DNA from: Rhizophagus irregularis
Lineage: Eukaryota; Glomeromycota; Glomeromycetes; Glomerales; Glomeraceae
Length of the DNA: 64,000 nt
Reading direction: 5' to 3'
NCBI RefSeq assembly: GCF_026210795.1
Contig: NC_089429.1
Coordinates: 4,278,001 to 4,342,000, forward strand
This document shows positions 3,506 to 64,000 of this stretch, piece after piece (position 1 is the stretch's first letter; every line of letters begins with the position of its first letter). A program made the position numbers and the translations under genes. Under the pieces are notes generated by a model. The model ran no database searches. It was given only the letters and a program-made list of their open reading frames with translations, and was not told the origin of the DNA.

Positions 3506-3509
3506 CGTT

Positions 3510-6260: not shown

Positions 6261-6269
6261 TCCTATTTT

Positions 6270-7195: not shown

Positions 7196-7205
7196 CAATA
7201 TAAAA

Positions 7206-8486: not shown

Positions 8487-8494
8487 AATTTATA

Positions 8495-9440: not shown

Positions 9441-9445
9441 AAAGT

Positions 9446-9518
9446 TATTGTAACTCACTCTATAAACGGGGGGTTCGAAAATATGTGTATTTCCGTTTCT
9501 ATTAAGTGTGGCAATAGG
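9446..9518 (+). repeat. Dispersed repeat, copy 2
   Basis: Second copy of the 3427-3505 repeat in the same orientation. On the minus strand it is followed by an open stretch (NNFLAMTCPETNRSLQ) up to a TGA near 9330 that does not resemble the corresponding stretch of copy 1, so homology ends at the repeat. Confidence 0.6.
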
Positions 9519-20095: not shown

Positions 20096-20310
20096 TAGAA
20101 AATTCGCAAATTTATTATATAAAATTGCCAAATTTGCAAAAAAAAATATTAAATCATAAAAAATTATTGAAATAATCATAGAAGCCAGGATTACATTAAT
20201 TATACATACAAATTATACAAATTTTGTGTTATTCCAAATTTTATAAAAATCGGCCTTTTTACAAATTTGGATTTTGCCAAACTTATTAAACTTATTCAAA
20301 CACTAAACAA

Positions 20311-23300
20311 ATGAGCAGAAAAAAGTTAGTCTCTAGTATACTTGACGATCTTGATGACGAAGAATCACCTTCAAATCAGCCATCTTCTACTCGTAGAAAT
20401 AGATCAATTTCTAGTATAATAAACGAAGAAATAATATCTTCTGCTAGATTAACAAGTAATAAAAGAAAACTAGTAGTTTGTAATTGTCCTGATTGTGATG
20501 GCGACTTGGTGGATTCTCGCACAAAAGAAATTCACGATTTCAGACTTCAAGAATACCAAGATTCACAAGGTACAATTTCGTCTCAAGTTCGTCAACTTGA
20601 AATAGGTGAAACATCAACACCCGCTTCAGCTGGACGAATGATTGATGAATCTATTAGACTAGAATCTGAAGAATCAGATAACAGTAATCAAGATGATGTT
20701 GATGATGAATATCAAAATATTGAATTTAACTTCTTACCTCGACAACATGCAAGAAAGTATACAAATCGTCCAGAAATTTCAGAAGATCCAGAAGATTTAT
20801 CATCATCCGAATATACTACAGAGGAAGATATCTACAGTGATACATTGTCTATAGGTGGTGAATCAGATAATGATCCAATTTCTGGAATTTCTGAAATTTT
20901 TGAAGATTATTCACCGCCTAGTTATGAACCATTTCAAAACCCACCATATTCAGAATCGAATTATGATCGATTTTTATGGATGTTACTTTGGATAATGAAC
21001 TTTCGAACAAGATTTAATATTGCAGAGACAGCTACTGAGACTCTAATAAAATTTATGAAATTGGCCCTGTGCGAGTTCAGTAGTGATGATTTTAATGATT
21101 TCCCAGATTCGCTTTACTTAACAAGAAAGAAGCTTGGATTAAACGACCAATTTCATAGTTTTGTATCTTGTCCGAAATGTTACAAATTGTATAAAAAAGA
21201 GGAAGTGGTAGATTTCAAATAAGAGGACAATCCTGCTATAATGAAATGTTAACACATAGAATTTCCCAATTCTTCAGTTCATAGATCACGTCTTTGCAAT
21301 ATGGCATTGTCTAAAAAAATTAGCGTATCGACAAATCGAACAATAATACAACCTAATTTAATGTATCCGTTTGCTAGAATCAATCAACAACTTGCCACTA
21401 TGTTTTGTTGGCCTGGGTTTGAAAATTCTTTCCGACATTGAGCTAATCGGTCGAATTTTGATAATATTTTGACCGATATATATGATGGGCAAGTGTGAAA
21501 GAATTTTAAAGAATCGGACAATGAAGATTCGCCAAATTTTTTTAGAAGCGAAGTGGCCGATTCTTATCTTGACTTGATGCTGAATCTTAATTGGTTTCAG
21601 CCATATGATAGTACCATTTATAGTATCGGTGTCATATACGCCGCTATATGCAATTTGCCACGCGATATCTGATTTAGACGTGAAAATTTATTGACTCTCG
21701 GCATTTTACCTGGGCCAAAGGAGGTCAGCCTATATAAAGTGAACCACTATTTAGCACCAATAGTTAACAAATTGGAAATACTCTGGGCTGAGTTAACACT
21801 AAATCGTACTTATGAATGCGAAAATGGAAAGAGAGTTCGTGGTGCTTTAATCTTAGTATCATGTGACATTCCCGCCACAAGAAAAATTTGCGGTCATGTT
21901 TCTGCCTTAGTTTCATGTCACAGGTGTAAGAAAAAAGCTAATTATGAAAATGGGCAGCATAATTTTGCCAGAAAGGATGATGTAAACTATTCTGCTCGAG
22001 ATTCGAATGAGCACCGGCAAAACGCATTAGGTTGGCGAAGATGCAACTCAGATGCTACTAGAAAGCACTTCGTCAAAGAAACTGGCGTTAGATGGTCCAA
22101 ATTGTTGTGTCTATCATATTTTGACCCTATTAGATTTATTACAGTCGATCCAATGCATTGCTTATTTCTGGGTATTACGAAGTGGATAGTAAAACGAATT
22201 TGAATCGATGGGGGTATTTTGACACCAAATTCTTTGAACAAAATTCAGAAAAAGATGGATGAGTTTCAGATACTATCCGATTTGGGTCGAATTCCAGGAA
22301 AAATTCATAGTGGAGAGGGATTCACCAATTTTACGGCCGATCAGTGGCGAATATTCTTTACAATTTATTCAACTGTATCACTTTGGGAACACCTTTCAGA
22401 CGTAGATAGAAGAATCCTGAATCATTTTGTCAGGGTTTGTTCGATTTTGGTAAATCGGATTCTAGAATCTAATTTGGTGGATGAAGCCCATAGAAGTCTT
22501 ATCGAAATAGTCAAGCTCATTGAGAATCACCACGGCAGAGATAAGATCACACCGAATCTTCATCTTTCTCTGCATTTGCGTGATTGCTCATCTGATTATG
22601 GACCATTATATGCGTTCTGGTGTTTCTCTTTCGAACGTATGAACGGTATTTTAGGTAAATATCCGTTAACGATTTTTTAACGATTTTAACGATTTCAATA
22701 TTAGCTTATAATTTATTGATTTCGCACTTTTAGGTTCGTTACCAAACAGCAACAGGAAAATTGAGTCTGAACTTATGCGTCGATTAATGTTTGATAAACA
22801 AATCGAAAATATCATAAGTTCAGGTATCGAAGTAAAAGGTCTTGAATTGCTAAACAGTCAGCGTACTATCAGGTCCCATTCAGTTACTGATGAATTTTCG
22901 TCAGATGAGATGCATCGATTTTGGCTGAATTCACAAAATATTAAAGATTCACAGATTTCTGGCAAAGAAGGCTTCCCAGGTGAATTTCTTAAGCCGGTAT
23001 CTCATAATATACTACTTTCAAGTGAAATGTTAAATTTAATGGTCGAATATTACAATGTGACTTACGAATCATTTGGATTTCGGAGGCCTCTTGTAGAAGG
23101 TTTAGATAACGATATAATAATTAGGGTCAAAATTAACCAATTCGGAAGGTGTCGGATTGGTTCAGAAGTCTTTGGATCGTCATTATCGTTAAGACATGTA
23201 AAAAGTTCGTACGTCTTAGCGAAATTTATTACGGATGATGAAGATGTCGACACCTACCCAGGTCAAATTCAGTATTATTTTACTCACGTAGTAGACTTTC

Positions 23301-23566
23301 CGGATAATTCCGTCGAACATTTTCTAGCATACGTTCGTTGGTATAAACACGCAAATTCAACCAATATTCGATACTATTTCAGCAGTGATGAAATTTGTAA
23401 TGTTGAGTTGTGGAATACCGAATTTTATCCAATAAGTCGTGATTGTATAATACCTGTGCATCATATTTTAGGTAGATTTGTACCAGTAAGTTACCAAATC
23501 TCAAACCGGCAAAATGCAAGAGAGTATTTAGCCGTAAATCCAATTAGTAGAAAATACCAATTATAA
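20311..23566 (+). pseudogene. KDZ/CACTA-like transposase, copy B
   Basis: Closest relative of copy A. ATG at 20311, then the Cys pair CNCPDCDG, an acidic region, FEDYSPPSYEPF, CPKCYKLY and the catalytic core: LNLNWFQPYDSTIYS (the first expected Asp is Asn in this copy), LVSCDIPATRKICGH with SCHRCKK, VDPMHCLFLGITKW, FSFERMNGILG. A 79-nt intron (22655-22733) interrupts the Gly codon, and exon 2 runs to 23566 (NPISRKYQL). Six in-frame stops are visible: 21220, about 21250, and TGA near 21439, 21496, 21670 and 22201. Four of the positions are Trp or Arg in copy A. The frame is otherwise continuous, so decay is by point mutation. Confidence 0.87.
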
Positions 23567-23664
23567 ACTTATAAGTTTTAGACATAAATTTATAATAAAT
23601 TGAGTAATTGACTATAAATTTGGTGTTGATTTTTCCGAATTTCTGAATTTTAATGACAAATCAT

Positions 23665-24310
23665 GTTTTTCAAAAGTTAATTTTGATGACTTTTTTTGTA
23701 TCAATCAGCCGTCAATCAAATATAATGATTTTTTGCCAAATTTTTATCGAATTTTTATTGAATTTTTATTGAATTATCAATTTTCCATAAATCGGAAGTA
23801 CATATTTGAATATTGGGTAAATTTTAGGTTGATTTGTCATTTTGTCTGATTTTTTTTTTGATTTCAACCAGCATCAATCAGCCGTCAATCAAATATAATG
23901 ATTTTTTGCCGAATTTTTATCGAATTTTTATTGAATTTTTATTGAATTGTCAATTTTCCATAAATTGGAAGTACATATTTGAATATTGGGCAAATTTTAG
24001 GTTGATTTGTCATTTTGTCTGATTTTTTTTTTGATTTCAACCAGCATCAATCAGCCGTCAATCAAATATAATGATTTTTTTCTGGATTTTTATTGAATTT
24101 TTATTGAATTTTTATTGAATTGTCAATTTTCCATAAATTGGAAGTACATATTTGAATATTTGGCAAATTTTAGGTTGATTTGCCATTTGTCTGATTTTTT
24201 TTTGATTTCAACCAGCATCAATCAGCCGTCAATCAAATATAATGATTTTTTTCTGGATTTTCATTAAATTGTCCGATTGGCATCAATCAGATGTGCTGAT
24301 TTGTAATGTC
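23665..24310 (+). repeat. 173-bp tandem repeat 3' of transposase B
   Basis: About 3.6 copies with the marker GTCAATCAAATATAATGAT at 23711, 23884, 24057 and 24228. Units contain ACCAGCATCAATCAGCCGTC, runs of ATTTTTATTGA and TTGGAAGTACATATTTGAAT. Subterminal repeats like these often bind transposase. Confidence 0.85.
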
Positions 24311-24344
24311 AGTCGATTTTGGTCTGATTTTTAGCTGATTTTCC

Positions 24345-24373
24345 ATATGTCCGATTTTTTTGATTTCGACCAG
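24345..24373 (+). mobile_element. KDZ-type terminus (GATTTCGACCAGTG)
   Basis: Ends TTGATTTCGACCAGTG, the same as the right end of the element at 30923-33847. It is probably the right end of element B. The matching left end was not found upstream of 20311, so the element may be truncated or rearranged. Confidence 0.55.
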
Positions 24374-24375
24374 TG

Positions 24376-25340
24376 GTTACTAATAACCATTTTTTTCTTT
24401 ATTTTTTTTAGATTCGGGTGGACTTCCAAAGAACGAAAACCCAAAGGTAAAGATCTTTACTTTATAATTTTTTTTTTAAATTTTATTAATGAACGGTTAC
24501 TAATAACTGTTCTTTTCTTTTTTTATAGGTTCGGGTGGACTTCCGAAGAACGGAAAAAGGAGAACCTTTAAGATTCGTAAGTAATATATTTACGAATCTT
24601 TTGTTTTAATGTTATGAAACAGTTACTAACCGTTCCTTTGATTTTTTTTTTATAGATTCGGGTGGATTTCTGTCTTTCCAAGGAACGGAAAAAACTAAAG
24701 ATTCAGTATGAATCTTTATTTTTTTATTTTTGTTTATTATTACGAACGGTTTCTAACCGTTCTTTTTCTTTTTTTTTAGGTCAGTGTCTTCCAAAGAATG
24801 GAAAAAACCAAGATTCGTAAGTACAAATCTTAGTTTTATTTTTATTTTTTTTTTATAATATTAACAAATGGTTACTAATAACCGTTCTTATTTTATTTTT
24901 TTAGTTCAGTGGGCTTCCGAAGAACAACGGAAAACCAAGATTCGTAAGTAAGTACGAATCTTGGTTTTTTTTTTATTTTTTATTTTTATTTTTTATTACT
25001 ACGAACGGTTTACTAATAACCGTTCTTTTCTTTTTGTAGGTTTCAGGATCTTTAGAAAAAGTGGAACCAAGATTCGTAAGTACGAGTACGAATCTTGGTT
25101 TATTTTTTATTTTTTTAATATTATTATGAACGGTTATTAATAACCGCTCTTTTTTTTCTTTTTATAGGTTTGGTGTCTTGAGTGGATTCTGATATACAGA
25201 AAAAACCAAAGATTCGTAAGTAGAATCTTGGGTTTTTTGCTTTTTTTTGATATTATGGAACGGTTTAGTTACTAACCGTTCTTTTCTTTTTTTTATAGTT
25301 TTGGTGGGTTTCCAAAAGATCAAGATTCGTAAGTATATAC
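24376..25340 (+). repeat. Intron/micro-exon array I, 8 units
   Basis: Eight tandem units of roughly 95-130 bp. Each has a hairpin with a branch-point-like core (AACGGTTACTAATAACCGTT), a T-rich tract ending in TAG, a 30-50-nt block (e.g. TTCGGGTGGACTTCCGAAGA ... CCAAGATTC) and GTAAGTACGAATCTTGG, where the donor GTAAGT sits in the hairpin AAGATTCGTA-AG-TACGAATCTT. Read as RNA each unit is an intron of about 70-80 nt plus a micro-exon. Block lengths are not multiples of three (30, 36, 37, 48 nt), so coding use is unlikely. It follows transposase B on the same strand. Confidence 0.75.
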
Positions 25341-25709
25341 GAATACATGAATAATGTGATTGTGGAATTGTAGATTAGCAATACTTATTTGTAATATGCA
25401 TTTATAAATAAAGTTGTGATTTTATTGCGAATATTAAATAAAATGAGTTGTGGCTGAATATTAGTAAATAAATTTAGTACAAATTTGCAATATAAATTAA
25501 GTAACATTCGGAAAACTATTCACCAAAATTTGCTATCTAAAATTGTTCCGAATGTTAACTGAATTTTAGCCGAAATTTCAAGCCGAACTTTAGGCGAGTG
25601 GCAGCGAATTGCAGCCAAAAAATCTGCTAAAGTTCGACCAGCATTAGACCATAAATCAGCCTAAAATCGGCTGGCTGAATTTTGGCCGATTTGGACTATT
25701 TTGACCAGT
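25340..25709 (+). repeat. Terminal segment, inverted partner of 30923-31310
   Basis: About 370 bp, nearly identical in inverted orientation to 30923-31310. It ends GGACTATTTTGACCAGTA. Together with array I it forms the left arm of a large inverted repeat whose right arm is array II. The last base is A where other termini have G. Confidence 0.75.
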
Positions 25710-25819
25710 ACATCATCTTCACTAAAGTTACCATCTCCGAATAATCCTTCAAGGTAAGAATCTAAACGTCTTATTGTGGCAAATATTCCAATTCTTACCT
25801 TTATTGATTCCAATCGATT

Positions 25820-26191
25820 TCATTCATCCCGAAGAATATTTTGGATTGTTTGACTGTGTGCTGTGAGAAATGAAGCATAGTCATGCTCTTCAGGTGCAAT
25901 ATCGGCCATAAAGTTTGAGTCTGTTAACTTCTTTCCTATGCGTACCTGATCACAACGTTTAAAGACTACCTCATAATGTGGGTCTGGGTCAATTTGCATC
26001 ATACAGGTTATCTCTTCATTAGTTACTACCGCTTGTGCTTCACGGATTTGGCGAATCTCATCCTTATATTCCTGCAATTTTGCATTTGAGCGGGGATATG
26101 GGATGGACTTGACAGGTACCTGCTTGAGTTCAGCTAGAACTGATCAGATGACTTGTCTGTGTTGGGCACTTCTTGCTTGATGTGTTGACAT
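25820..26191 (-). pseudogene. Unknown family gene, one TGA
   Basis: A 123-codon frame, ATG at 26191 (MSTHQARSAQHRQVI), then TGA at codon 16, then VLAELKQVPVKSIPYPRSN and a helical stretch (EYKDEIRQIREAQAVV), with MQIDPDPHYEVVFKRCDQV and a C-terminus SQTIQNILRDE. The TGA is most simply CGA mutated. I recall similar proteins as a multicopy Rhizophagus family of unknown function; it neighbours the gene at 26328-26888. Confidence 0.5.
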
Positions 26192-26327
26192 CTTGTAAAC
26201 TTTTTAGGTTCCTCTTTTATTCAATTACATTTTTTCTGAAAATAAAATTAATTCTCCGCCTATTCTATGAGGGTAAAAAAGATGAAGACGGGTTAATATC
26301 GCCTTCTAAAATTTATTTAGATATAAT

Positions 26328-26888
26328 CTATTCATCGTCATTTGAGTCATCGTCATTTGAGTCACCGAACACATCCTTATCAGGAGTATCCCCATCCTTA
26401 AATAACTCGAAATTGCGCATCATTCAGATGTATTTTCCCTTATTAGTTTCTTCTGATATAAAATTACAATGGAGAATAGCTTGTTCTATAACTACCATTT
26501 CTACGAACCTGGTATACTTTTCTTGACTAATTTTAGTTAATTTATCAGTAAGTTTATCGAGATTTATACCACCATCTGCACAATCTCACCAGTAAGCCTT
26601 TTCAGCTTTCTTACATATATTTGCCACCTGTTCGTATGCCTTCTCGGCTTGTGTGCGCTACTTCCAGAGTACTCGTTCAGCTTCAGCTCTCCAGATTGGG
26701 TTGACTTTTAGAAGATGCGGTCTGAAATTGCTACTTGGAATGCATTCCAGGATATGGCCTACAAGTTCGGGGATTACTGATACTGCGTGTGGGTTTTGGT
26801 GGCTTTTTAGGATCTCCCTATTGATAGCTATAAGATCAGAGACTGTGCAGCCGAAGATTGTTGCCAGCTTTTCAGCGATATATACCAT
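26328..26888 (-). pseudogene. Unknown family gene, three nonsense codons
   Basis: One frame from ATG 26888 to a TAG at 26328. It reads MVYIAEKLATIFGCTVSDL, then FRPHLLKVNPIWRAEAERVL, then TAG, TQAEKAYEQVANICKKAEKA, TGA near 26587, GINLDKLTDKLTKISQEKY, TGA near 26424, and an acidic tail (DGDTPDKDVFGDSNDDDSND). All three stops can arise by one transition (CAG/CGA). Domain unknown. The strong retention of frame argues for recent loss. Confidence 0.55.
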
Positions 26889-27089
26889 GTTATGTACTGT
26901 TTATCTGTATAGTTACTTGGTACCTACCTTTTAATCAATTACATTTTTTCTCGGTATAAGGGTAATTGCTTGCCTTGCTATTCTGCTCTATTGACTCCAT
27001 GGCTGGTTTCCTGGATGGGTTAATATTTCCTTACCTTTTTTGGCTCTGTTGGCTTTGAAATCCTATTTCTTGTTCGGTTGGGGGTAAGT

Positions 27090-27290
27090 AGGTGAAAATA
27101 TAAATAGGTGATTTAGATTATGAAATAAGTAGGATATAAATGAATTAGATTATGAGATAAGTATGATATAAATAGGTAAAAATATAAAAAAGGTGATTTA
27201 GGTTATAAAATATGTAGCATATAAGTAGGTAAAAATATTAATAAGCGATTTAGATTATGAGATAAGTAGGTGAGCCAGAATTGGGATTTT
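27090..27290 (+). repeat. TTTAGATTATGARATAAGTA minisatellite
   Basis: Four to five degenerate copies of a 45-60-bp unit with GATTTAGATTATGA-ATAAGTA and ATATAAATAGGTAAAAATAT. Confidence 0.65.
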
Positions 27291-27339
27291 CATACTACTT
27301 TAAGAAGCTAATACATATTATTATAGAGTAGTATTCTGC

Positions 27340-27600
27340 ACGAATCAAATTTCTCCTCTGAAATTCAATTCGATTCAGATTCGATTCAAACTCGATTTGA
27401 CCTCCAAAAATTATTATCTCAGGATCTAGTGATCCAATTTCAATGATCTTTTTTTAATTGATAGGTCTCATTTCTCTGATCAAAATAGAAAAAAATTATC
27501 AAAATTGGACTGCTAGATCAAAAGTTATTCGTAAAATACGTTTTATTATTTGGAAGCAATCAGGGTCACACTGTATCACAAATCGATTCCTAGTATAGTT
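27340..27600. mobile_element. Possible fold-back MITE
   Basis: A palindromic core (ATCTAGTGATCCAATTT facing AAAATTGGACTGCTAGAT) spaced by about 70 bp. The core resembles the centre of the MITE at 38266-38561 (TCCAGTGGTCCAATTT). Ends and target duplication are not clear. Confidence 0.4.
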
Positions 27601-27802
27601 ACACTGATCATAAGACATTTTGAGCAAATGTTCTAGATATTAATCAGGTAATTTGTATTACCATTTGTTAATCACAGTAACAAAAAATTTCTGTACTTGT
27701 CAAAAACCTAAAATTGCTTTCAATTACTGCGACTAATGAGATAAGTCATCTGTTTGATATAATAATGAAATCGTTGTTAAAAAAAGCCACTATAATTCTA
27801 TT

Positions 27803-28261
27803 TCAGAGTTTAGAGAACGTACTAGGGGCTTTGACTATTATGTGAATATTTTCTTCAGTCGTTAAAGCTTTAAGTTTTCTTAAAGTAATCAAATATGGCG
27901 AATCAATGATAATATGAGTATATTCATTAGAAGGCTGTTCTTCCCAATAATCACTAATTATCCCCCTAATAAGCTTAATGTCTTCTTTTTCATCATTTTT
28001 TAGAACGAGTTTTGAGAATTTCTCTTCGTTATCATTGGAAATATGAACTTTCTAAAGTTTCAAGTCATCATCATTAATATCAGTAAAAGAGTTGCCTTTT
28101 TTTTCTTTGAGATGTCGCATAATTTCATCTTGAAGTTTGATACTGATATCACTGGTAAGAACTTTTATCTCAATTTTTTCCGAGTTTGCCTCAATGTCTC
28201 TAAAAAGGTGACAAGTAAGGGTAATTTCCTTCATTATCCTATAAATGTTACCCATGGTCAA
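27803..28261 (-). pseudogene. Crinkler (CRN) ubiquitin-like header, one TAG
   Basis: A 152-codon frame from ATG 28261 to a TGA at 27803, broken only by a TAG at codon 70 (28052-28054). It contains MKEITLTCHLFRDIEANSEK, FTDINDDDLKL, then the stop exactly where the family has Trp (LKLWKV), then KVHISNDNEEKFSKLVL and YWEEQPSNEYTHIIID. Crinkler headers are ubiquitin-like modules joined to varied C-terminal effector domains; here the frame ends soon after the header (HIIVKAP) with no C-terminal domain. The single TGG-to-TAG change inactivates it. It is better preserved than the copy at 4871-5314. Confidence 0.75.
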
Positions 28262-28264
28262 TAA

Positions 28265-29245
28265 AACAACGTATTTATATTTAGTTTCTATTATCGGAGT
28301 AACTTCTAATTTTTATTTTCCCCACTACCAACCTATTATGTTAATATTCTGTCAATAATTGTGCCTCATGAGATGGAAAAACTGACATCCTTTTAGGATT
28401 ATCAATTATCCGGTTAACAAAGATCTAAGTAATCTACTAACGTAATTGAGAAACTATATAAAATTTACTTACTTTGCTTTCCAATACTTCATTTCCAAAA
28501 AATTCTATCAGAGATATTAAACGTTATAACTGTAATACTGTTCGTCATTAGGCATTATACAGAAGTAGTGTTAATGTGTTTAGAAATATCTTGACACAAT
28601 ATTTTCTCCATAATATAAATAGACGAGTATGAATAGTAAATGACTCCTTTGCCAAGTTAAGTAGAGCAGAAACAAAATTACCTGTTCATTGCTTTGCCTA
28701 CAAACTTTGGGCCAATATTTATCCGATTAACTATTTCAACATAATTCTGGTTTGTTCTTCTACCAATTATATTGCAATACACTAGGAGTCTTTTTCATTG
28801 CAGCTTTAAATTCAGGAATTACATTACCATCGAAAACATATAGAGCGATTCTATTTTCCAAAGTCTTTTATTGTCGTTGGTACAGACGTCAGAAATTTGT
28901 ACTCTCTTCTTTAACAAGATGGGTACATTATTTCAGTCAGAGACTGCTCGAAGAGCACATCTTTGAAATTTACCTGAAGGGTGCTAAAAGCGTAGGTAAG
29001 AGAAATAGTAAATGAAACGAAATATCTTCAGAAAGACAACTGTCACACGCAACAAACCTAATAAGTAATAACTTCAAATTCTAAAAAGATATTCATTAAT
29101 CATATGATAACCATTTAGTCAAATGCTGAAATAAATATGCCAACAAAAATACTGTGCATTTTTTGTGTAATCATCATCGCATCTAAAATTATAAAATGAA
29201 GACTGTATTCAATTTTTCTGAAAACTGGAATTAGACATATTAAGA
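28265..29245. other. AT-rich intergenic, no supported gene
   Basis: Only short frames without support, such as an 87-codon plus frame at 28752-29015 starting with TTG (ends LKGAKSVGKRNSK). Confidence 0.4.
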
Positions 29246-29247
29246 AA

Positions 29248-30290
29248 CACAGGTCGAAAGGGCACCATTGTCCAAAATTCAAAAAATGCAAATTCCATAT
29301 TTTCCTGGAAAATGGTGGGAAATTGTGGAAAATGCTGCATTACGCTGAGCAATTTTTGAAATAGTATTGTTACAACATTGTCCGATTTAGCAAATTTTAT
29401 GAAAATTTGGGAAAATGCTACATTATATCTCAAATGTAACATTGCGTAACATTTTGTAACATTGTTATAACATTGTCATTGAAATCAAATTTTGCTTTTT
29501 TTTTGTCAAATGTTCCAATTTTCTTGCAAATGGTGCATTTTTATGAAAATTCCACATTTTACTTCAAATGTAATAACATTTCATAAAATTGTTATAACAT
29601 TGTCAATTAAAATCAAATTTTGCTTTTTTTTTTGTCAAATGTTCTAATTTTCTTGCAAATGGTACATTTTTATGAAAAATGCTGCATTTTATCTCCAATG
29701 TGATGTCATTGTAACAACATTTCATAAAATTGTTATAACATTGTCAATTAAAATCAAATTTTGTCAAATATTCCAATTTTCTGGCAAATGGTGCATTTTT
29801 TATGAAAATTCTATATTTTTTTGTCAAATGTTGCATATTTTCAGTAAATTTTACGTTTTTTTGGTCAAATATTTCATTTTCGTCAGAATGTTAAAATATT
29901 ACAATTTTTTTTTTGGAAAATGCTCAATAATATAGCATTACACTGGAAAATGTAGCATTTCACCAAATTACACTAAAAAGCATCACAATTATCACATTTT
30001 TTGGAAAATTCCACATTACATTAAATTATACTAAAAAATGTAGCATTATACTAAATTATGCGGCATTGCACTAAAAAATACCACAATTACACTAGACAAT
30101 GTAGCATTACACTAAAAGTACCACAATTATTATATTTTTTAGAAAATTTTGTGTTATACTGGAAAATGTAACATTATGCTAGAAAATGCGGAATTGCACT
30201 AAAAAATGCGGAATTGCGCTAAAAAACACAAAAAAATACTACAATTACACTGGATAATGTAGCATTACACGTAATTACATTAAAATTGTT
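29248..30290 (+). repeat. CACAGGTC terminus and GCATTxTACxAxAAATG satellite-like repeats
   Basis: Starts with CACAGGTCGAAAGGGCACC, a KDZ-type left end. Then come about 700 bp of imperfect repeats built on GGTGCATTTTTATGAAAAT and TAACATTGTCAATTAAAATC, and a second set on ACACTAAAAAATGTAGCATT. The mirror version (CACAGGTCGAACAGATGTC, read from 63876 inwards) has the same CATTGT/CAAAATT words. No ORF is real here. The right end was not found. Confidence 0.6.
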
Positions 30291-30349
30291 AATTTTTATT
30301 TTTATTTATTTGTAAATTACGGACATTATTAAATTTATAATATTCTAAA

Positions 30350-30922
30350 TGCATTATTTAACATTAAATACATTGTTAATACAAACAATGTATCAACACG
30401 ATGTGTTGTGATGTTTAATTTAGTACTAAACCTTACTACTGAAGACCCTCTTTTTGTCACTATAAACAGGTGGAGGGAGCAGCAATGGCTCTCCCCCTAT
30501 AGGTACTTTATGGCCTCTACCTGTTTACAGAGGAGGGGCTTTTCGTAAAGTTGTTAGATAGATATATATATGTGTATATATATAAGTATATATATACATC
30601 TATCGTAATTAAATTAAAAAAAATTATAAAAAAAAAAATTTTTTTCGGGGAAAATGCCCCTATTTATATAAAATACATGTCACGTGTATCACATGACATG
30701 AACTTTGATTAAACTGCACAGCTGCAGTTCATTTTTTAACTAACCTAAAAATGCTAAAAATAAACTATTGCAGCCGCAGCCGCAGCCGCAGTTTTTTTTT
30801 AGAGTTTAAAAAAAAACTAATTTAGTTTATTTCGCTCTTCCCTTCTTCTCACCATTTTCCCGTCACGTTTCTCCTTCCCCCTCTCTCCCCACTTCCCTCT
30901 CTCTCGACCTTCCCCCTCACCA
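30350..30922. other. Non-coding, inverted repeat, microsatellites and polypyrimidine tract
   Basis: Holds an inverted pair (TATAAACAGGTGGAGG at 30463 and CCTCTACCTGTTTACAGAGG at 30514), a TA-rich microsatellite (30560-30602), a GCAGCC repeat (30772-30792) and a C/T-rich strand (30835-30922) that continues across the element junction into 33848. Confidence 0.5.
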
Positions 30923-33847
30923 CACTGGTCAAAATAGTCCAAATCAGCCAAAATTCAACCAGCCGATTTTAGGCTAATTTATGGTCTAATGCTGGTCGAA
31001 CTTTAGCTGATTTTTTGGCTGCAGTTCGCTGCCACTCGCCTAAAGTTCGGCTTGAAATTTCGGCCAAAATTCAGTTAACATTTGGAACAATTTTAGATAG
31101 CAAATTTTGATAAATAGTTTTCCGAATATTACTTAATTTATGTTGCAAATTTGTACTAAATTTATTTACTAATATTCAGCCACAACTCATTTTATTTAAT
31201 ATTTGCAATAAATCACAACTTTATTTATAAATGCATATTACAAATAAGTATTACTAATCTACAATTCCACAATCACATAATTCATGTATTCGTATATACT
31301 TACGAATCTTGATCTTTTGGAAACCCACCGAAACTATAAAAAAAAAGAAAAGAACGGTTAGTAACCGTTCCATAATATTAAAAAAAAGCAAAAAAACCCA
31401 AGATTCTACTTATGAATCTTTGGTTTTTTTCTGTTTATCAGAACCCATCCGAGACACCAAACCTATAAAAAAGAAAAAAAAAGAGCGGTTATTAATAACC
31501 GTTCATAATAATATTAAAAAAAAATAAAAAATAAACCAAGATTCGTAAGTACGAATCTTGGTTCCACTTTTCTAAAGATCCCGAAACCTACAAAAAGAAA
31601 AGAACGGTTATTAGTAAACTGTTCGTAGTAATAAAAAATAAAAATAAAAAATAAAAAAAGAACCAAGATTCGTACTTACGAATCTTGGTTTTCCGTTGTT
31701 CTTTGAAAGCCCACTGAATCTAAAAAATAAAATAAGAACAGTTTATCAGTAACCGTTCGTTAATATTATAAAAAAAAAATAAAAATAAAACCAAGATTCG
31801 TACTACGAATCTTGGTTTTTTCCATTCTTCAGAAGACACCGACCTAAAAAAAAAGAAAAAGAACGGTTAGAAACTGTTCGTAATAATAAACAAAAATAAA
31901 AAAATAAAGATTCATACCAAATCTTTAGTTTTTTCCGTTCCTTGGAAAGTTGGAATCCACCCGAACCTATAAAAAAAAATCAAAAGAACAGTTAGTAACC
32001 GTTCCATAACATTAAAAAAAAGATTCGTAAGTATATTACTTACGAATCTTTATCTTTGGGTTTTCGTTCGTCGGAAGCCCACCGCACCTAAAAAAATAAA
32101 GAAAAGAACGGTATTAGTAACCGTTCATTAATAAAATTAAAAAAAAAGAAAAAATTATAAAGTAAAGATTCGTACTTACGAATCTTTATTTTTGGGTTTT
32201 CGTTCATCGGAAGCCCACCCGATCCTATAAAAAAAAAGAAAGAATAGTTAGTAAACCATTCGTAATAATAATAAATAAATAAATAAATTAAAGATTCTTA
32301 CGAATCTTTGGGTTTTCGTTCTTCGGAAGTCCACCCGATCCTAAAAAAAAGAAAAGAACGGTTATTAGTAAACCGTTCATATATTAAAAAAAAAACAAAA
32401 AAAATTAAACCAAGATTCGTACTTACTTACGAATCTTGGTTTCTTGGTTTTCCGTTCTTCGGAAGCCCACCAGATCCTAAAAATAGAAAAGAACGGTTAT
32501 TAGTAACCGTTCGTAATATTTTTTTAAAAAAAAAAATCCAAGATTCTTACGAATCTTTGGAATTTTCCCATTCTTCAGAACACGGAAGCCTACCCGAACC
32601 TATAAAAAATAAAAGAACGGTTATTAGTAACCGTTCGTAACATTTTTTTTTAAAAAAAATAAAAAAAAAATCCAAGATTCTTACGAATCTTGGAATTTTC
32701 TAGTTCTTCGGAACACGGAAGCATACCCGAACCTATAAAAAATAAAAGAATGGTTATTAGTAACCGTTCATAATATTTTTTTTAAAAAAAATAAAAAAAA
32801 ATCCAAGATTCTTACGAATCTTGGAATTTTCCCGTTCTTCGGAACATCCGATCCTAAAAAAAGTAAAGAACGGTTATTAATAACCGTTCATAATATTAAA
32901 AATAAACAAAAAAAAAATAACCAAGTTTCAAACTTACAAAACTTGGTTTTTCCATACTTCGAAAGCCCACCCGAATGGCCGAACCTAAAAAAAATAAAAA
33001 AGAACGGTTAGTATTAACCGTTCATATTAAAAATATAAAAAAAAACTCCAAAGAATTCGTACTTACGAATCTTTGGGGTTTCTATACTTCGGAAGCCCAC
33101 CCGAACGGCCGAACCTAAAAAAAAGTAAAAAAAGAACGGTTAGTAACCGTTCATATTAAATTAAATTAAAAAAATAAAAAATAAATAAACCAAGTTTCGT
33201 ACTTACGAAACTTGGTTTTCCATACTTCGGAAGCCCACCCGAACGGCCGAACCTAAAAAAAAAGTAAAAAAAGAACGGTTAGTAATCGTTCATATTAAAT
33301 TAAATTAAAAAAATAAAAAAAAAATAAACCAAGTTTCATACTTACGAAACTTGGTTTTTATATACTTCGGAAGCCCACCCGAACGGCCGAACCTAAAAAA
33401 AAAAGTAAAAAAAGAACGGTTAGTAACCGTTCATATTAAAAAAAAATAAAATAAACTCCAAAGAATTCGTACTTACGAATCTTTGGAGTTTCTGTACTTT
33501 GGAAGCCCACCCAAAAGCCGAACCTATAAAAAAAAAGTAAAAAAAGTGAAAGGGAGAAGGGAAGGAAAGAAAAGGGAAGGAAGGAAAAGGGGAAGAAGGG
33601 GAAACAAGGAAGGGGAACGAAGGAAAGGAAAGGGGAGGGGAAGAAAAAAATTATTAAAAGTTTAAAAAAGGATGTATAAGATGATCCTTTTTTAAACTTT
33701 TAATACGCATAATGCGTAACGCATAACGTTTGATAAATCATATATGTCGAAACTTGGCCGATTTTTAATAATTTACGAAATTTGGCCGAAATGTGTGACA
33801 GATCAGCCGATTTGTCACATGACCGAAAGTTTTGATTTCGACCAGTG
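30923..33847. mobile_element. Non-autonomous KDZ/CACTA-like element carrying array II
   Basis: Left end CACTGGTCAAAATAGTCC, right end GATTTCGACCAGTG: 8-bp terminal inverted repeats CACTGGTC. The element is flanked by the 3-bp duplication CCA (30920-30922 and 33848-33850), as CACTA-type elements make. At 2925 bp it has no transposase; it would depend on one in trans. Interior: 390 bp matching 25340-25709 inverted, then array II, a purine-rich stretch (33545-33655, GAAGGGAAGG type) and AAAGTTTTGATTTCG. It landed in a polypyrimidine tract just before the first exon-like block of array III. Confidence 0.8.
31290..33540 (-). repeat. Intron/micro-exon array II, about 18 units
   Basis: Minus-strand counterpart of array I with about 18 units of 110-140 bp. 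Each has donor hairpin (AAGATTCGTAAGTACGAATCTT type; a late subset uses AAGTTTCGTAAGTACGAAACTT), branch hairpin (GAACGGTTACTAATAACCGTTC type), TAG acceptor and an exon block related to TTCGGGTGGGCTTCCGAAG. Stem substitutions in the subset occur on both sides and keep pairing. Confidence 0.75.
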
Positions 33848-33859
33848 CCACCATTCCCA

Positions 33860-35310
33860 TTCCCTGTTGGTATGGCAATTATCGTTACATTTGGAAAGTC
33901 AGGTAAGTTTCGTACCTTACGAAACTTAAATTATTATTTTTTTACTTTTTTTTCTTTATTAAGAAACGTTTTAACGTTTCTTTTACCTTTTTTTGTAGGT
34001 TCCGTTACTCCAAGATTCCAAAATGGCAAAATGTAAGTTTCGTTTTAATGAAACTTATTATATTATATTTTTTTTTTAATTAAGAAACGTTCTCTAACGT
34101 TTCTTATACTTTTTTTTGTAGGTTTTAGTGCTCCAGGATTCTGAAACAGAAAATGTAAGTTTCGTTTTAACGAAACTTATTATATTATATATTTTTTTTA
34201 ATTAAGAAACGTTCTTTAACGTTTCTTTTACTTTTTTTTGTAGGTTCCGGTGTTCCAGGAGCGTAAATTCATTAGACTATAGCTGGAATAAACCAACACT
34301 AGATTATTAGGTCTTTTTAGAAACGTTAAAAGACCTGTGAGAATGCCAAGTTTCAGCATGAATATTCATTAATGACTCTCCTTGATTCCGAAATGGAAAA
34401 ATGTAAGTTTCGTTTTAACGAAACTTATTATATTTTTATTTTTTTTTTAATAAAGAAATGCTCTAACGTTTCTTTTACTTTTTTTTTGTAGGTTCAAGTG
34501 CTCCAGGATTCCGAAACGGAAAAATGTAAGTTTCGTTTAACAAAACTTATCTTTTTTGTTTTTTTAATTAAGAAACGTCCTAACGTTTCTTTTACTTTTC
34601 TTTTCTTGTAGGTCTCCAAGTCGGGTGTCATTGGAAAGTGAAAATGGTAAGTTTCACAATGAAACTTATCATGTTTTATTTTATTTTTTATTATTAGAAA
34701 TGTTTTTTAACGTTTCTCTTTTATTTTTTTTGTAGATTCGAGCGGGATACTTGACTTTGGTAAGTTTTGCAACATAAACGTTGCGAAACTTAATTTTTTT
34801 TTAATTTTTTTTAAGAAACGTTCTAATGTTTCTCTCTTTTTTGTAGATCGATTTTGGGAGTCTGATTGATCTGGAGCTCCCTCCCTCCAGTTTCAGAAGT
34901 CTTGGGTTTGGATAACGTTCAGGTTTCGAAGTATAACTTCGAAACTTCAATTTAAATGGTGAGTTTCATGACAAATATCACGAAACAAGTTTTTTTTGAT
35001 TTTTTTTATTAGGAACTGTTTACTAACGTTCCTTTTCTTTTTTGTAGGTTCAGGATATCTGGGAAGCTAACTTAGGAAACATGAATCGCGTAAAACCATT
35101 GTTAAATAGAAGCCATTACTTTCCATTCAGGTATTGGATATGGCTTGGTAAGTTTCGTACATTTCGTTACGAAACTCCTGTTTTTTTTTTAAGAAACGTT
35201 CTAACTGAACGGTTTTCTTTTTTTGTAGATTATTGTAATGAAATAACAAAAGTAAACAGTTCTTTGGTTCCTTGCTTGGTGAGTTTCGAAGATTAACCTT
35301 CGAAACTTTT
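33860..35310 (+). repeat. Intron/micro-exon array III, about 10 units
   Basis: Same plan with different sequence: donor hairpin GTAAGTTTCGTTTTAACGAAACTTA, branch hairpin AAGAAACGTTCTCTAACGTTTCTT, then T-rich tract, TTTTTGTAG and exon blocks such as TTCAAGTGCTCCAGGATTCC. Most blocks are 25-40 nt. Three are longer (34256-34402, 34847-34959, 35049-35149); the first contains inserted sequence near 34265-34370. Later units have diverged donors (GTAAGTTTTGC, GTGAGTTTC). Confidence 0.72.
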
Positions 35311-35329
35311 TGTTTTTTTTATATTTGTT

Positions 35330-35770
35330 TTTCTTTAACATTATTGTACTTAATTACATATTATAATGATAAATTGTTAATAAAATTAAAATCATAATAA
35401 ATTGTTATAAAATTTGCATAAAATTACGCCAAATTGTTGCTTAATTACATCAGGAACTTTTAATACGCGAAGTACTTCGTAAACTTTATACGATGTAAAA
35501 TTACGTAATATTTTGTAGTAATATTACAGAGTACTTCGTCATATTATGTAGAATTAAATTTTATAATATTTAGATATATTACATAGTGTAGTCTTACATA
35601 ACGTACTAAAGTATTCCATAATTTTATTGCTACGTATATTTTTGAAAATATAATAGATTGTAATTTTATGTAATATATCGAAGCACTCCGTATTTTAATG
35701 TAATGTAAAATTTTGAAATTATTAAGGTATAATCTTACGTAATATTCCAAGTAATTGTCCACTTGTATAT
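35330..35770. repeat. AT-rich TTACGTAATATT-type degenerate repeats
   Basis: Clustered ACGTAATATT / AAAATTACGTAA / AGTACTTCGT words without a clean period. Similar in style to 62400-62830. No gene. Confidence 0.45.
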
Positions 35771-35889
35771 CATACCAGATACTAAAATGAGTAATAACCG
35801 TTGGTCAGATGATGATGATGTGCTAGAAAGTCTCAAACTGGAAATAATCTTCATATATACTGCGACAAATCATATTTATATATTTTTTT

Positions 35890-36560
35890 AATTTCTTCTT
35901 TTTTTAATTTCTTCTTTTTCGTAGGTTTCCTTCTAGAACGGCAATTTCGGCTTAATTGATTAGTATGTTTATTTTTTTTAAATTTATTTTTATTTTTAAA
36001 ATTAATAACTTGCTTTTTCTTCTTGTAAGCTTCTGCCTAGAAATGGTCAGTTGGTTAGTATTTATTTATTAAATTAATAACTTCTTGTAGGCTTCTTCCA
36101 AGATGGCAATTTCGGCTGAGTATAGGAACGCTTTTTTGATTTTTTCTTCTCGTAAGGGTACGTTGGCAATTAGTTTAATATAGAACACTTAGTTAATTAG
36201 ATTTTTATTTTTTTTTTAATTTATTTTTATTTTTAAATTAATAACGCCTTTTCTTCTTGTAGGCTTCTTCCAAAATGGCAATTTCAGCTGAATATAGGAA
36301 CGCTTTTTTGATTTATTTTTTTTTCTTCTCGTAAGGTACGTTGGCAATTAGTTTAATATAGAACGCTTAGTATTTTTATTTTTATTTTTTTTTAAAATTT
36401 ATTTTTATTTTTAATTAATAACTTGCTTTTTCTTCTTGTAGGCTCTTCCAAGATGATAAGTTCGACATGTGCCTGCCTCTTAATATAGGAATGGTTGGTT
36501 GGTTAGTATTTATTTATTAAATTAATAACTTCTGAATATAGGAACACTTTTTGATTTTAT
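35890..36560 (+). repeat. Degenerate intron/exon-like repeats
   Basis: Four to five units with TTCTTCTTGTAGGCTTCTTC followed by AAGATGGCAATTTCGGCTG and a TTCTTCTCGTAAGGGTACG block. Acceptor-like signals are clear, donors weak, no hairpins seen. Possibly a decayed or earlier form of the arrays. Confidence 0.45.
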
Positions 36561-36722
36561 TTTTTTTTTCTTCTTGTAAGGGTACGTTTTGCAATTAGTA
36601 GGTCTATGACTTGGCTCTCGTATTGAAAAGACCCCCCAAGGTACCATGGTAAAGGTGTTGTATTCATTGTAGGGTATTCGTACCTGATAGGTAACCTCCT
36701 TGAACCATCTAAGAAATACCAT
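36522..36722 (-). CDS. Hypothetical short gene or exon fragment
   Basis: ATG at 36722, reading MVFLRWFKEVTYQVRIPYNE then NTFTMVPWGVFSIREPSHR, followed by a Lys-rich stretch that overlaps the repeat and is probably not part of the original protein. The aromatic-rich first 40 residues look like real protein. Family not recognised. Confidence 0.35.
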   Translation of the reverse strand: MVFLRWFKEVTYQVRIPYNEYNTFTMVPWGVFSIREPSHRPTNCKTYPYKKKKKIKSKSVPIFRSY

Positions 36723-40908: not shown

Positions 40909-43900
40909 TTACAAATGAAATTGTCTATTGATAGGTATGACTGCCATGTAAGTAATCAGTTTTCGGTTGCCTATTGTAAATTTACAAGGTAAAAATCGGC
41001 TATATATATTATGAATCGGTATAATACAATCTCTTGATAATTCGTGAAAATAATCTTTCCACAATTCAATATTACAGCTTTTATCATCCTGATTGTCGAT
41101 TCTGCAATGAAATCTTGTTTTTTCCCTCGGTACCCACATATACCATTTTATAAAAGCAAGTCGATGTGTCTTTGCACCGGTTGGAAGCGGAACTGTGTGC
41201 TCAAAATAAAACTGCACTTGTCCGAGAAAAATATCGACAGATTCATCATCTTGTATAAACTTGCTTGTGACATATGAACTTCTTTGATATCGAGGTGCAA
41301 GTGCAGATCCAAAGATTTCAGTAGCAATCCGAATACGACCAAATTGAGACACATTGGGTGATACAACGATTGGTTGATTTTCAGAATTGCTTGATGTCAA
41401 ATTATTTGAAACAAATTCGGCAATTGATACAAAATCCCTATTGTATGTATCATTGTAATATTTTATCAGAAGTTTATATATAGTATCTGGTAACGATACT
41501 TGCTTTTTTGGGGTAATCATTTCTCCGGGAAATTCTTCACAACCGGTAATTGTAACATCAATATTTTGATGAAAGGTTCGCATAAATCGGTAAAGTTCAG
41601 CAAAATCAAACCCATCATAAGCCGCTAAACTTCCAGTAGTTAGCCTATTTTGTACCAGAGATAATGCTTCCATCAATTTTTGATTATCCGATTGGGCGGA
41701 TATTAGGCAATTTAGCCGTGAATTTTGCGTGATGATTCGCATCAATTCTAGTTCAATAGCTCGCTTACTATTTGGAAAAGAACCTACAGCAAGATGATAA
41801 ATAAATTAATTCATTTATACTATTTATTAAATTTAACTTATACCGATAACTTATACCGATTTATATATATATTTACCTAATAATCCGTTCATTCTTTCAA
41901 ACGAGTAACACCAGAAAGAATATAATGGGCCATAATCATGGCAACAATCGACAATATGGAGTGATAAATGGATGTTTGGAGTTATCATCTCTTTTCCGTA
42001 ATACGTTTCAATTAAACGAGCTACTTGAAGCAATCAGCTATGAGCTTCGCGCAATGCATTGGTGGCGATAATTTGACAGACAAGCAAAGAGCAAGCTCTT
42101 ACAAAATTTGCTAATATTTCACGATCGGAAGTATCTAGGAGATCCCACATCAATGGAGTCGCGTAAATTAAAATAAACGATTTCCATTGATCAGCCATAA
42201 ATCCAGAAAACCCTTCCCCAGTTGCTATTTTATACGGAATCCTTCCGATATCCGCTGGTACTTTAAGAGCTTTTGCTCTTCTTTCCATTAATTCAAGGTC
42301 CTTTTTAGTGATTTTTCCGCTATCTATCCATAATTTCTTTACGATCCAATGAGCAATCTCCAGGAATAAACAGTGCATTGGATCGACAATAAGATGTCTT
42401 ATCAGGTTGAAATAAGGCAATCTTAGCATTTCCGACCACTGCACGTGAGTGTCGGAAACATGTTTTTTTCTTTCTTCCTGAGTTCTGCACTGTCTCCAAA
42501 GTTCGGCATTTCGTCGATGCTCATTTGGATCTCTGGAAATGTACCAATCATCCATATCGTCAAACTCACCAAAATTAAACCTTCTTCCGCTGCTATTGGC
42601 TGTTTTGTAGCATCGATGACAACCGACCAGTGCCGAAATATGTCCACATAATTTTCTAGCAGCCGGTATGTCATTGCTGCAGCAAATTACGGCCATCTGA
42701 ATTCTTTTACCAGATGGTAGATCGATGCCATCCCAGAATTCTAACAATTTGTCGACAATTGGACTAAGAAAATGATTAATCTTGTGTAATTTTACTTCTT
42801 CCAGTCCTGGGAAAAGTCCAAGATATAGCATGTTTTCTCGTTTAAATCTAATATCACGGGGAAGATTACATATGACCCCATAGATAACACCAGAACTGTA
42901 AGCTGATGAATTAAATGGCTGGAACCAGTCTAAATTAATCATGATCCCAAGATTAAAATCGGCCATCTCATTTGTAAAAAATTGAGTATCCGGGTTGTTT
43001 AAGGAAGATGGAAAGCTTTTCCATACATCTCCATCGTAAATATCGGTGTATAAGCCTGGTTCATTTCTCCGATTTGTCCATTTCTGAAGTGATTCTTCAA
43101 AGCCTGGACGTTGATACATCACAGTCAATTGCTTTTTCAAAGTTGGTATCGGATATAACATTCTGGGTCTTTGGACAAATCTATTAACTACCGGGACTTT
43201 ATTAGTTAATTCTGTTCCACATATCCGCCTTTTATTACGCATAGGATGGTTAGGAAATTCCACATGAGTGCATTGGAATCCGGTATTTGTCTCATTTTGT
43301 GGATTTCCTGGCAAAATTTCTGATATTTTATACAGAGTGTTGCATTCAGGACATACCGCACATGTCCTATCTCGTTTATTAATTCCTAAAAGTTTTTTTG
43401 CCATATAAAAACTTGTAGGAAAATTTTCAAAACGTGTTCGATCAGTATCCAATAATACCATCCTGAAAAACTTAATAAGTGACTCAATAGCAACATCCGG
43501 AACACGAAATCTCGCTTGGTATTTGAATATCCACAGAAGTATCCACGAATCATTAAAATTAATGTTCGTGTCAAAATATTCATGGTCTGACTCAAGATCA
43601 TTAAAATTGGGAGCGGTAAATTCTTCAATTGGAACATCGTCTTCATCTGTAGTAGAAGCTCCATCATCATCGCTCGGTACTTTATCTTTAAGTTGAACTG
43701 GTTCCAGTTTATTAGGTTGTTCAAGATTTACATCACGAAACTTATTGTGGCATTTTCGTCTTTTCGGTCCATCAATCGGCTCATTATCAGTTTCATTATC
43801 GTTTTCATCATCATCATTTCGTTCCGATTCTTCATCATCATTTCATTTCGATTCATCATCATCGTTTCGTTCCGATTCTTCATCATCGGTTCGTTCTGAT

Positions 43901-47999: not shown

Positions 48000-48950
48000 A
48001 AACTCGTTTATTGTAAATTCTTGTTCTCCTTGTAAGAATTGTAGCTTTAAGTAAAATAAAGTAGTTCATTTATTTGTAAGATTAGAGCACCAAGTCGGTA
48101 AATAAATAACAACTGATTTTATTATAATTATATAAAAATTTTTATTATTATTAAAATTTACATAGAAGAAAAATATTAAAGAAAAATCAAAACAAATAAA
48201 AAACGAAAGCCTAAAGATCAAAATCACAAAAAATAATGGTTAGTACTAAGTTTCGGACAAATATCAGAATAATTTAGGCCTGAAACTTAACATCATATAA
48301 TTGATATTTAACTTATAGAATCCTGATATCTGTAAAGAAAATAGTTGTGAAAAAATACTTGTCGAAACTATGAATCACGTGGTTTAAGAAAAATTCTCAA
48401 GAATTTTTCTTAATACTGCTTAATTTAAAGTTTAAAACATTGGTAACGATAATTAAAATTGCTGCAGTATATTTTTGGAGATCGCTGATTCCTAAGTCTA
48501 TTTTCCACTAGCCGAATTTAGACTTCATTAAAAAATATTTTTTTTTCTCTTTCTTATGGTAAAGTTTCGAAGTTGAATTTGAAACGAAATTTTTCAACTT
48601 TGGAAATATTAATGTTTGGGACATTATAAATTATCTCTAATACATGTCTCGCAGTTTCAGCTCCAACGATAATAAAATTATGGATACGAATGCCTTCTAA
48701 CCAAATAAAAGTTATGACCTTTTATTTTCGTTTTTAAAACGGGCAATTAAGACTCCTTTAAAACGTTTCTTTAACGTTTTTCAAACTGGCTCCGAAGACT
48801 TAGATTTTAGAGTCCTAAGTATGTTTTGACAAAAAAGTCTTTAATTTCGGATTCCTGGGTAAGTTCCAAACGGTTTGAAACAACTTTTTTTAAAAAAAGT
48901 TAATTTTTCATTTTTTTTAGAGTCGGAATTCAACCTATTTCCTTTATTAC
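48000..48950. other. 3' flank of the split gene, no supported ORF
   Basis: AT-rich. From about 48540 the sequence changes to TTTCGAAGTTGAATTTGAAAC-like text that may be the leader of array IV. No coding frame. Confidence 0.4.
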
Positions 48951-48959
48951 TTTTTTATG

Positions 48960-60105: not shown

Positions 60106-60109
60106 ATTT

Positions 60110-62830: not shown

Positions 62831-62859
62831 AAGTTTACGCCATATTTAATTTACTGATG

Positions 62860-63876
62860 TATCACTCAATCGTCAGAAATTGTCTTAAAAATATTGCATT
62901 TGCACTCAATTGTCCAAAAATTGTCAAACCATTGTCGCTCAATTGTCTAAAATTGTTAAAATTTTTCTAGCATTTGAAAGTTGAATTTTGGTAAAATGGT
63001 CCATTTTTCCAAAATTTGACAAAAAAAATGCACAATTTACCAGAATTTTCCTGGTAAATTGTGCAACAATGGAAAATTTTTATTTCAAATTTGCAATTTA
63101 CGTATCATTACAAAAAATTCATCACAATTTACATAACATTGGCCTAATATTGCTAAAAATTCACCACAATTTGCACTTCGTTTACATAGCATTAACTAAA
63201 TTCACCACAATTTGCATTACGTTTGCATAAAATTACTAAAAATTTGACTAAATTCACCACAATTTGCACTTCGTTTACATAACATTACTAAAAATTTAAC
63301 TAAATTCACCACAATTTGCATTACGTTTGCATAAAATTACTAAAAATTTAACTAAATTCACCACAATTTTCATTATGTTTACATAACATTACTAAAAATT
63401 TAACTAAATTCACCACAATTTGCATTACGTTTGCATAAAATTACTAAAAATTTGACTAAATTCACCACAATTTGCATTACGTTTGCATAAAATTACTAAA
63501 AATTTGACTAAAATTTACACAATTTACATTATGTTTACATAAAATTACTAAAAATTTGCCTAAAATTCACCACAATTTACATTACATTTGCATAAAATTA
63601 CTAAAAATTTAACTAAATTCACCACAATTTGCACTTCGTTTGCATATCATTACTAAAGATTTGCCTAAAATTTCCCACAATTTAATGATAATTCACTGAA
63701 AAATTTCTCAACATTTGAATTAGGAATTCTGTAGGAATTCCGCCATTTTGACAAAATTTGCCAAATTGTAAGACCTCCATTATCCCAAAATTGTAACACA
63801 ATTTACCCCAATTTACCGGGATAATTCTCAATTTGCCAGAAAAATTCCAGGCAAATTTTGCAACAATGACATCTGT
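62860..63876 (+). repeat. 52-54-bp tandem repeat ending at a CACAGGTC terminus
   Basis: About ten copies (63120-63650) of ACTAAATTCACCACAATTTG with CATTACGTTTGCATAAAATT and ACTAAAAATTT. Outside these lie ATTTGCCAGAAAAATTCC-like words and the terminal TTCGACCTGTG (inward CACAGGTCGAACAGATG). It resembles the left end at 29248. No gene. Confidence 0.75.
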
Positions 63877-64000
63877 TCGACCTGTGTCAGTCGATTTGTG
63901 ATTGATTTTACCAATTTTTACCGTTGGTCAAAAAATATGACGAATCACATGACCAATCGGCAAAAATTATGCTGAAAGCTCTTAACGGTCGAAAGTTTTG
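63877..64000. mobile_element. Start of a further KDZ-type terminus at window edge
   Basis: Ends ...GGTCGAAAGTTTTG, matching the text just inside the 33847 terminus (CCGAAAGTTTTGATTTCG). The final CCAGTG would fall past the window. Confidence 0.4.

Follow-up and report, generated by a model that had tools for sequence, protein, structure and literature searches.

The question raised by this locus is what kind of element strings short exons and introns together in tandem, and whether such rows are spliced. We analyzed a stretch of 64,000 bp of the Rhizophagus irregularis genome (C1:4278001-4342000, hereafter the window; coordinates are positions within it unless another locus is named), which contains three such arrays, I to III. 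The genome searched comprises 146.7 Mb in 32 contigs, and an assembly of R. irregularis DAOM197198 with 32 chromosomes has been published (passages of PMC10234402). Our interpretation, to which we assign a probability of roughly 0.65, is that a non-autonomous CACTA transposon carries arrays I and II as its cargo, a mobile exon-cassette array whose micro-exons are spliced together, and that array III belongs to another CACTA-like family built on that plan.

Structure of the Tandem Units

The two arrays of the first family, family I/II, are located as follows:

24376..25336, + strand: array I, about 8 exon/intron units
31296..33514, - strand: array II, about 17 units

In each unit the exon is followed by a donor, mostly GTAAG, that lies in a palindrome. 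A T-rich stretch leads to a second palindrome with the CTAAY-like branch motif, and the unit closes with a pyrimidine tract and TAG. A model of the unit gave 8 matches in array I (+ strand, 24413-25336), 18 in array II (- strand, 31296-33514; 17 strong and one at an E-value of 0.001); its 7 matches in array III (+ strand, 33893-35041) were weak. Matches to the opposite strand within the arrays were weaker and originate from the palindromes. With a rough regular-expression parse, 8, 18 and 9 intron-like stretches were obtained for arrays I, II and III; in the first two the parse often starts at a GTGGG within the exon, and its last stretch falls in the terminal region. A strict scan, which required a donor in a stem of at least 8 and a branch point in a stem of at least 7, followed by YAG, found 21 matches in the window; all but one, at 49317, lie in arrays I-III. 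Each of five rounds of a Markov-shuffle control gave none. No Rfam family reached its gathering score within the window.

Used as a query against the whole genome, the unit returned 213 matches. For family I/II we sampled the window and 20 ten-kb loci, giving 22 oriented stretches with 322 units and 291 parsed branch motifs. Behind 281 of the 291, the first AG is that of the TAG acceptor, at a median distance of 25 nt. Exons have a median length of 44 nt (interquartile range 34-47; 266 of 288 units) with our first parser, which misplaces some starts, and of 45 nt (40-48; 220 of 288 units) with the second. An earlier note on this DNA had described tandem intron/micro-exon units, and this plan, read on a single strand in each array, holds. 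Its account needs revision in other points: the strand of array II is -, 25340-31290 and 35330-35980 contain no array, the region at 35.98-36.58 kb is an array of another type, and further arrays lie outside.

The region at 35980-36580 is a 178-bp tandem repeat with acceptor- and donor-like sites, unlike arrays I-III. By eye, more diverged intron/micro-exon arrays are seen at 48800-50060 (+), 51500-52170 (-), 60100-61130 (+) and 61850-62170 (+). In the one at 49 kb, donors, branch points and branch-point hairpins appear to be kept and most donor hairpins eroded.

Transposon Copies Carrying Arrays I and II

It is well supported that arrays I and II form the interior of two inverted copies, one of them truncated, of a non-autonomous DNA transposon of the CACTA (CMC/EnSpm) type. 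Their features are:

24376..25710, + strand: copy 1, truncated, with array I and the right end; left part not found in the window
25421..25710, + strand: right terminal region of copy 1, 290 bp, outermost base mutated (TACTGGTC on the - strand)
30923..33847, - strand: copy 2, full, 2925 bp, CACTGGTC...GACCAGTG
33541..33847, - strand: left terminal region of copy 2; a CT-rich tract precedes the first acceptor
30920..30922, no strand: target duplication CCA of copy 2, left side
33848..33850, no strand: target duplication CCA of copy 2, right side

The two copies are inverted relative to each other and have a common 289-bp flank with 96% identity. CACTG ends and 3-bp target duplications are in keeping with the CACTA superfamily. 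Both ends are present in 18 of the 22 oriented stretches, where the full length is 2192-3951 bp and the ends read CACTGGTC...GACCAGTG, or, over a longer distance, CACTGGTCGAAAT... on the left and ...ATTTTGACCAGTG on the right. The terminal inverted repeats are of the CACTA/CACTG type, with CACTGGT at the start of 16 of the 18 full copies and GACCAGT at the right end of 14. The 3-bp target duplication is identical in 16 of 18 (the exceptions being L028 and the end-damaged L034). At least 40 places in the genome were scored for the right end and at least 40 for the left end. Per full copy there are 11-20 head-to-tail units (median 16.5). The subterminal repeats at the two ends of CACTA elements face each other, whereas here 288 of 290 unit calls in the 18 full elements point in one direction.

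The insertion of copy 2 can be read from its target, the CT-rich leader of a family-III element: the paralogue L044 has the same leader without interruption and a single CCA, compared to two in the window. The earlier note knew of no named element with this plan. We found no named counterpart of the array either; the element that hosts it, however, belongs to the CACTA type. What the note had missed is the transposon itself, with its ends and 3-bp duplications, the relation of arrays I and II as inverted copies of one family, and that of array III to a second family, interrupted by copy 2.

The note had also offered an intron-generating repeat as an explanation. A nursery of introners, in which single hairpin introns leave the arrays and insert into host genes, might account for the hundreds of near-identical hairpin introns across the genome, and fungi do have introner-like introns and symmetric stwintrons that like these have multiplied and carry inverted repeats (PMC8469720). 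Those introns are located in host genes, however, whereas here intron and exon multiply jointly as one repeat unit inside a transposon. In the flanks of 17 full-element loci the strict scan found a neighboring inverted copy (L031) and one spurious-looking match (L037), and no other isolated hairpin intron. We therefore consider a nursery very improbable, and the note's proposal finds no support there.

A Second Family Containing Array III

Array III is part of a second CACTA-like family, with CACAG ends and different letters in its palindromes, and its plan is the same as that of family I/II. The element of the window extends from a left end CACAGGTCGAAA at 29248 to a right end GACCTGTG at 63886; copy 2 and a 27-kb insertion split it into three parts:

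29248..30922, + strand: left part, with the CACAGGTCGAAA end, AT-rich subterminal repeats, and a TATA-like sequence and CT-rich leader (by eye)
33848..35447, + strand: middle part, including array III, whose introns start at 33903
62835..63886, + strand: right part, ending ...GACCTGTG, behind the 27-kb interruption; borders known to about 24 nt

Among the matches listed, all 39 other copies of the left end start at 29244-29249 and all 39 other copies of the right end stop at 63885-63893. These ends form 15 left-right pairs at a spacing of 4.4-9.5 kb, 4 of which include a listed match to array III, so that many copies of the family-III ends appear to lack a recognizable array III. Conversely, 18 of 40 array-III clusters have a listed end in the correct orientation within 6 kb, and none has one in the wrong orientation. 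The flanks of the window copy (AAA and TCA) form no target duplication. A 59-residue piece of family III matches three R. irregularis proteins.

The 27-kb interruption (35448-62834) starts with CATCAG and ends with CTGATG, with a possible TA duplication (by eye; the borders have an uncertainty of about 24 nt). Several arrays and a Transposase_21 frame lie within it.

Gene Models That Follow Array Introns

Splicing of the arrays is likely, as judged from predicted proteins. When 14 of the 15 units of the L027 array are spliced and translated, the product matches 127 predicted proteins, and the 120 listed are all from R. irregularis. We fitted these 120 to the window and the sampled loci, allowing GT/GC-AG introns. 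Seven fit exactly from end to end, residue for residue, across 7-16 introns. On array I, P0044 fits 24306-25370 with 8 introns, 7 of which are array introns; its start lies in the neighboring transposon and resembles a predictor's choice. On array II, P0056 fits with 15 introns; two introns have their end within an exon, and two pass over a unit. P0004 fits L022 (15 introns) and P0024 fits L023 (14 introns). Two proteins from different records, P0012 (RIR_jg11881.t2) and P0013 (OCT59_006866), both fit L040 with 16 introns each; they share 10 introns, differ in exon skipping, and have their exon 1 outside the element. P0105 (OCT59_007612) fits L025 with 7 introns and joins a 383-nt outside exon to the array. 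The models RIR_jg29739.t3 and.t4 differ in a block of 18 residues and in the C-terminal end. The spliced RNA that the earlier note envisaged thus gains ground in so far as database proteins fit both arrays of family I/II in the window in exactly spliced form: in array I the fit uses each of the seven array introns, in array II most of them.

The RIR17 models were made with AUGUSTUS and intron hints from RNA sequencing (passages of PMC6123716), and Illumina and Nanopore RNA was used for the published DAOM197198 models (passages of PMC10234402); the use of RNA in building a gene set does not in itself show reads at these particular junctions.

OCT59_007612, fitted at 2806-5011 of L025 (C15:4039000-4048900), has an acidic, low-complexity sequence in its outside exon and is a candidate host-transposon chimera.

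Reading Frames in the Arrays

We asked whether the exons belong to a protein. Exon lengths leave remainders of 0, 1 and 2 on division by three in 101, 61 and 104 of the 266 exons of the first parser, and in 104, 49 and 67 of the 220 of the second; 165 and 116 exons, respectively, are thus not multiples of three, largely as the earlier note had said. Its further statement that no frame runs through the units is borne out as well: when the order of exons was permuted, only one of 18 elements fell below p = 0.05 with either parser, and hence no frame is kept across units. A conserved coding frame had appeared plausible, as the nucleotide shuffles gave long frames in 13 of 18 elements; the exon-order control removed this signal, and the second parser agreed. 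The fully open frame of L027 found with the first parser was not reproduced with the second. Exons are nevertheless poor in stops: 63 of 266 are stop-free with the first parser (shuffled mean 8.9) and 38 of 220 with the second (shuffled mean 4.6), which would be enough alone for gene finders to build proteins.

Could the arrays be true protein genes made of micro-exons, under selection for variable basic peptides, that ride on a transposon by chance? Long spliced frames are possible (in L040, 244 of 253 codons with the first parser and 237 of 246 with the second), there is an excess of stop-free exons, and 120 protein models are among the matches listed. We nonetheless consider this unlikely, as most exon lengths are not multiples of three, the permutation of exon order left a single element with a signal, and models of one locus differ in their exons and begin outside the element. 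Schistosome micro-exon genes, which encode secreted proteins, likewise have rows of very short exons, but with lengths that are multiples of three, in contrast to just 101 of 266 and 104 of 220 exons here.

In L045 (1627-1800), two 42-nt exons are in one frame and encode FGGPGAPGFPK and FGGSGAPGFPK, a collagen-like sequence that might hint at a coding origin. As an account of the arrays, a collagen-like coding origin was rejected, since the other exons do not follow; the two exons are a lead. SP7-like effectors were ruled out as well, as the arrays have an intron in every unit, unlike the SP7 structure presented in passages of PMC11333574.

Palindromes at the Splice Sites and Weight of the Evidence

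The exact donor hairpin of the family-I/II type occurs 524 times in the genome (286 + 238) and that of the family-III type 796 times (376 + 420; some sites counted on both strands), compared to none for the reversed-pattern control of either. In 68 distinct sequences, the first four pairs of the inner stem are Watson-Crick in 82% (of 209), whereas permutation gave a mean of 51% and a maximum of 63%. Changes are mostly at CpG. The donor G was changed in 23 of 297 cases (kept in 274) and its mirror C in 96 of 298 (kept in 202), a difference that counts in favor of spliced cargo, although the units are related and no p-value is given. RNA folding yielded z-scores of -4.0 to -5.9 in three introns and -1.35 for one unit. 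An excess of G-U over A-C pairs was observed in one set only, the family-III core stems (26 against 8; 58 introns in 5 loci). The stems covary, yet these data do not separate RNA from DNA reasons for the palindromes.

In array II, the palindrome at 31538-31559 has a flipped center, so that the sense strand reads GTACTT instead of GTAAGT. Both proteins fitted to L040 skip the exon corresponding to this unit.

Several observations weigh against cargo that is spliced and mobile. At the sampled loci, which represent a small part of one genome, 113 of the 120 proteins have no end-to-end fit. The intron paths are our own fits to proteins rather than annotated coordinates, and splicing is predicted here from gene models; 62 of the 91 fitted donors are GTRAG and 29 are not. 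Several donors of P0004 and P0024 lie 4 nt downstream of the unit donor, at GTAC..., as a gene finder that keeps the frame would pick, and therefore some models look ab initio. Donors are broken in some units (ATAAGT in 15, GTAGTA in 2, and GTACTT). G-U and A-C pairs are equal in the inner stems (13 each) and stand at 115:96 in the family-I/II donor stems, which argues against selection for an RNA hairpin. Finally, no excision was seen, and the two window copies contain no tnp2-type transposase and no frame of at least 150 amino acids, for which reason the element is called non-autonomous.

Some of these points would also be explained if the arrays were palindrome satellites acting as DNA within a CACTA element, as transposase binding sites or replication-prone hairpins, and the splice signals were an unused relic of the founding sequence. 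The strong inner stems with G-U equal to A-C, as expected at the DNA level, the CpG changes, the flipped center with donor GTACTT in copy 2, and the odd donors in some gene models would all fit. Such satellites do not account for the uniform direction of the units (288 of 290) or for TAG as the first AG behind 281 of 291 branch motifs; moreover, two families with different letters keep the same plan, and two gene sets based on RNA sequencing include proteins that fit the spliced arrays. On balance, we regard this alternative as rather unlikely.

If the arrays are instead spliced transposon cargo, as we favor, a tnp2-type transposase acting in trans would move the element, and unequal exchange or slippage would add and remove units. 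Transcripts might enter either from DNA lying upstream or from the left end with its CT-rich tract; splicing would then join micro-exons to one another and sometimes to an outside exon, with units that have bad donors being skipped. The array apparently opens with an acceptor and closes with a donor, and would thus be a portable exon cassette. The palindromes at donor and branch point may flag the splice sites or make them accessible; alternatively, they may maintain instability of the array at the DNA level.

Neighboring Transposon-Like DNA

A neighbor truncates copy 1 at 24375:

20290..24375, + strand: transposon-like stretch abutting array I; own left end not found

A frame in it (21673-22203) matches Pfam Transposase_21 at 21.5 bits, under the curated cut-off of 28.6. 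The final 43 bp of the stretch resemble the array element's left end at 81%. A second neighbor ends at 19576 with 32 bp that are 87.5% like the right end. Transposase_21 is above threshold at 13609-14418 and 42034-43842 (29.4 and 36 bits). Such neighboring elements may supply the transposase. An autonomous copy with the same ends was not found; of the long copies (C14, C9 and C4), only the 11-kb copy on C14 was inspected.

That copy (L047), as judged by eye, is filled by an element like a long interspersed nuclear element (2537-9469, -), with frames resembling endonuclease, reverse transcriptase and RNase H. Elsewhere in the window, a frame at 7206-8426 (-) matches Pfam Uma2, a putative restriction endonuclease.

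Relation to Known Systems and Implications

CACTA, CMC-EnSpm and Plavaka elements are prevalent and expressed in R. irregularis (passages of PMC11075540 and PMC8647823). The array element resembles them in its CACTG ends and 3-bp duplications, and intron-exon array cargo is not described in those passages. More widely, no description of intron-exon arrays as transposon cargo was found in the titles, abstract beginnings and passages of the open-licence literature. A close likeness is Tgm-Express1 of soybean, a CACTA transposon that, like the array element, carries exons; these undergo alternative splicing, including splicing to exons of the gene in which the element resides (PMC1947982). Its exons are five unrelated captured fragments of host genes and its splicing was shown by cDNA, whereas in R. 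irregularis one short exon-intron unit with palindromic splice sites has multiplied in tandem, the elements form two families with dozens of copies, and splicing is predicted from gene models.

If the element is spliced as modeled, what this transposon moves would be whole exon-intron architectures, not captured genes or introns one at a time. A set of 'hypothetical protein' models of R. irregularis would then be accounted for as transposon cargo, and the element would provide a natural test of the effect of hairpins at donor and branch point on splicing. For gene catalogues there is a warning, as at least 120 database proteins of R. irregularis resemble one spliced array translation. We tentatively extend the idea, with less confidence, to two or more transposon families of R. 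irregularis carrying ready-to-splice rows of exons: insertion would write a multi-exon gene, sometimes fused to a neighboring exon, stop-poor micro-exons would keep many combinations open, and orphan genes would have one of their sources here. In this root-symbiont fungus, a jumping element may thus carry ready-made multi-exon genes around the genome, which, if true, would open a direct way to study the origin of new multi-exon genes.

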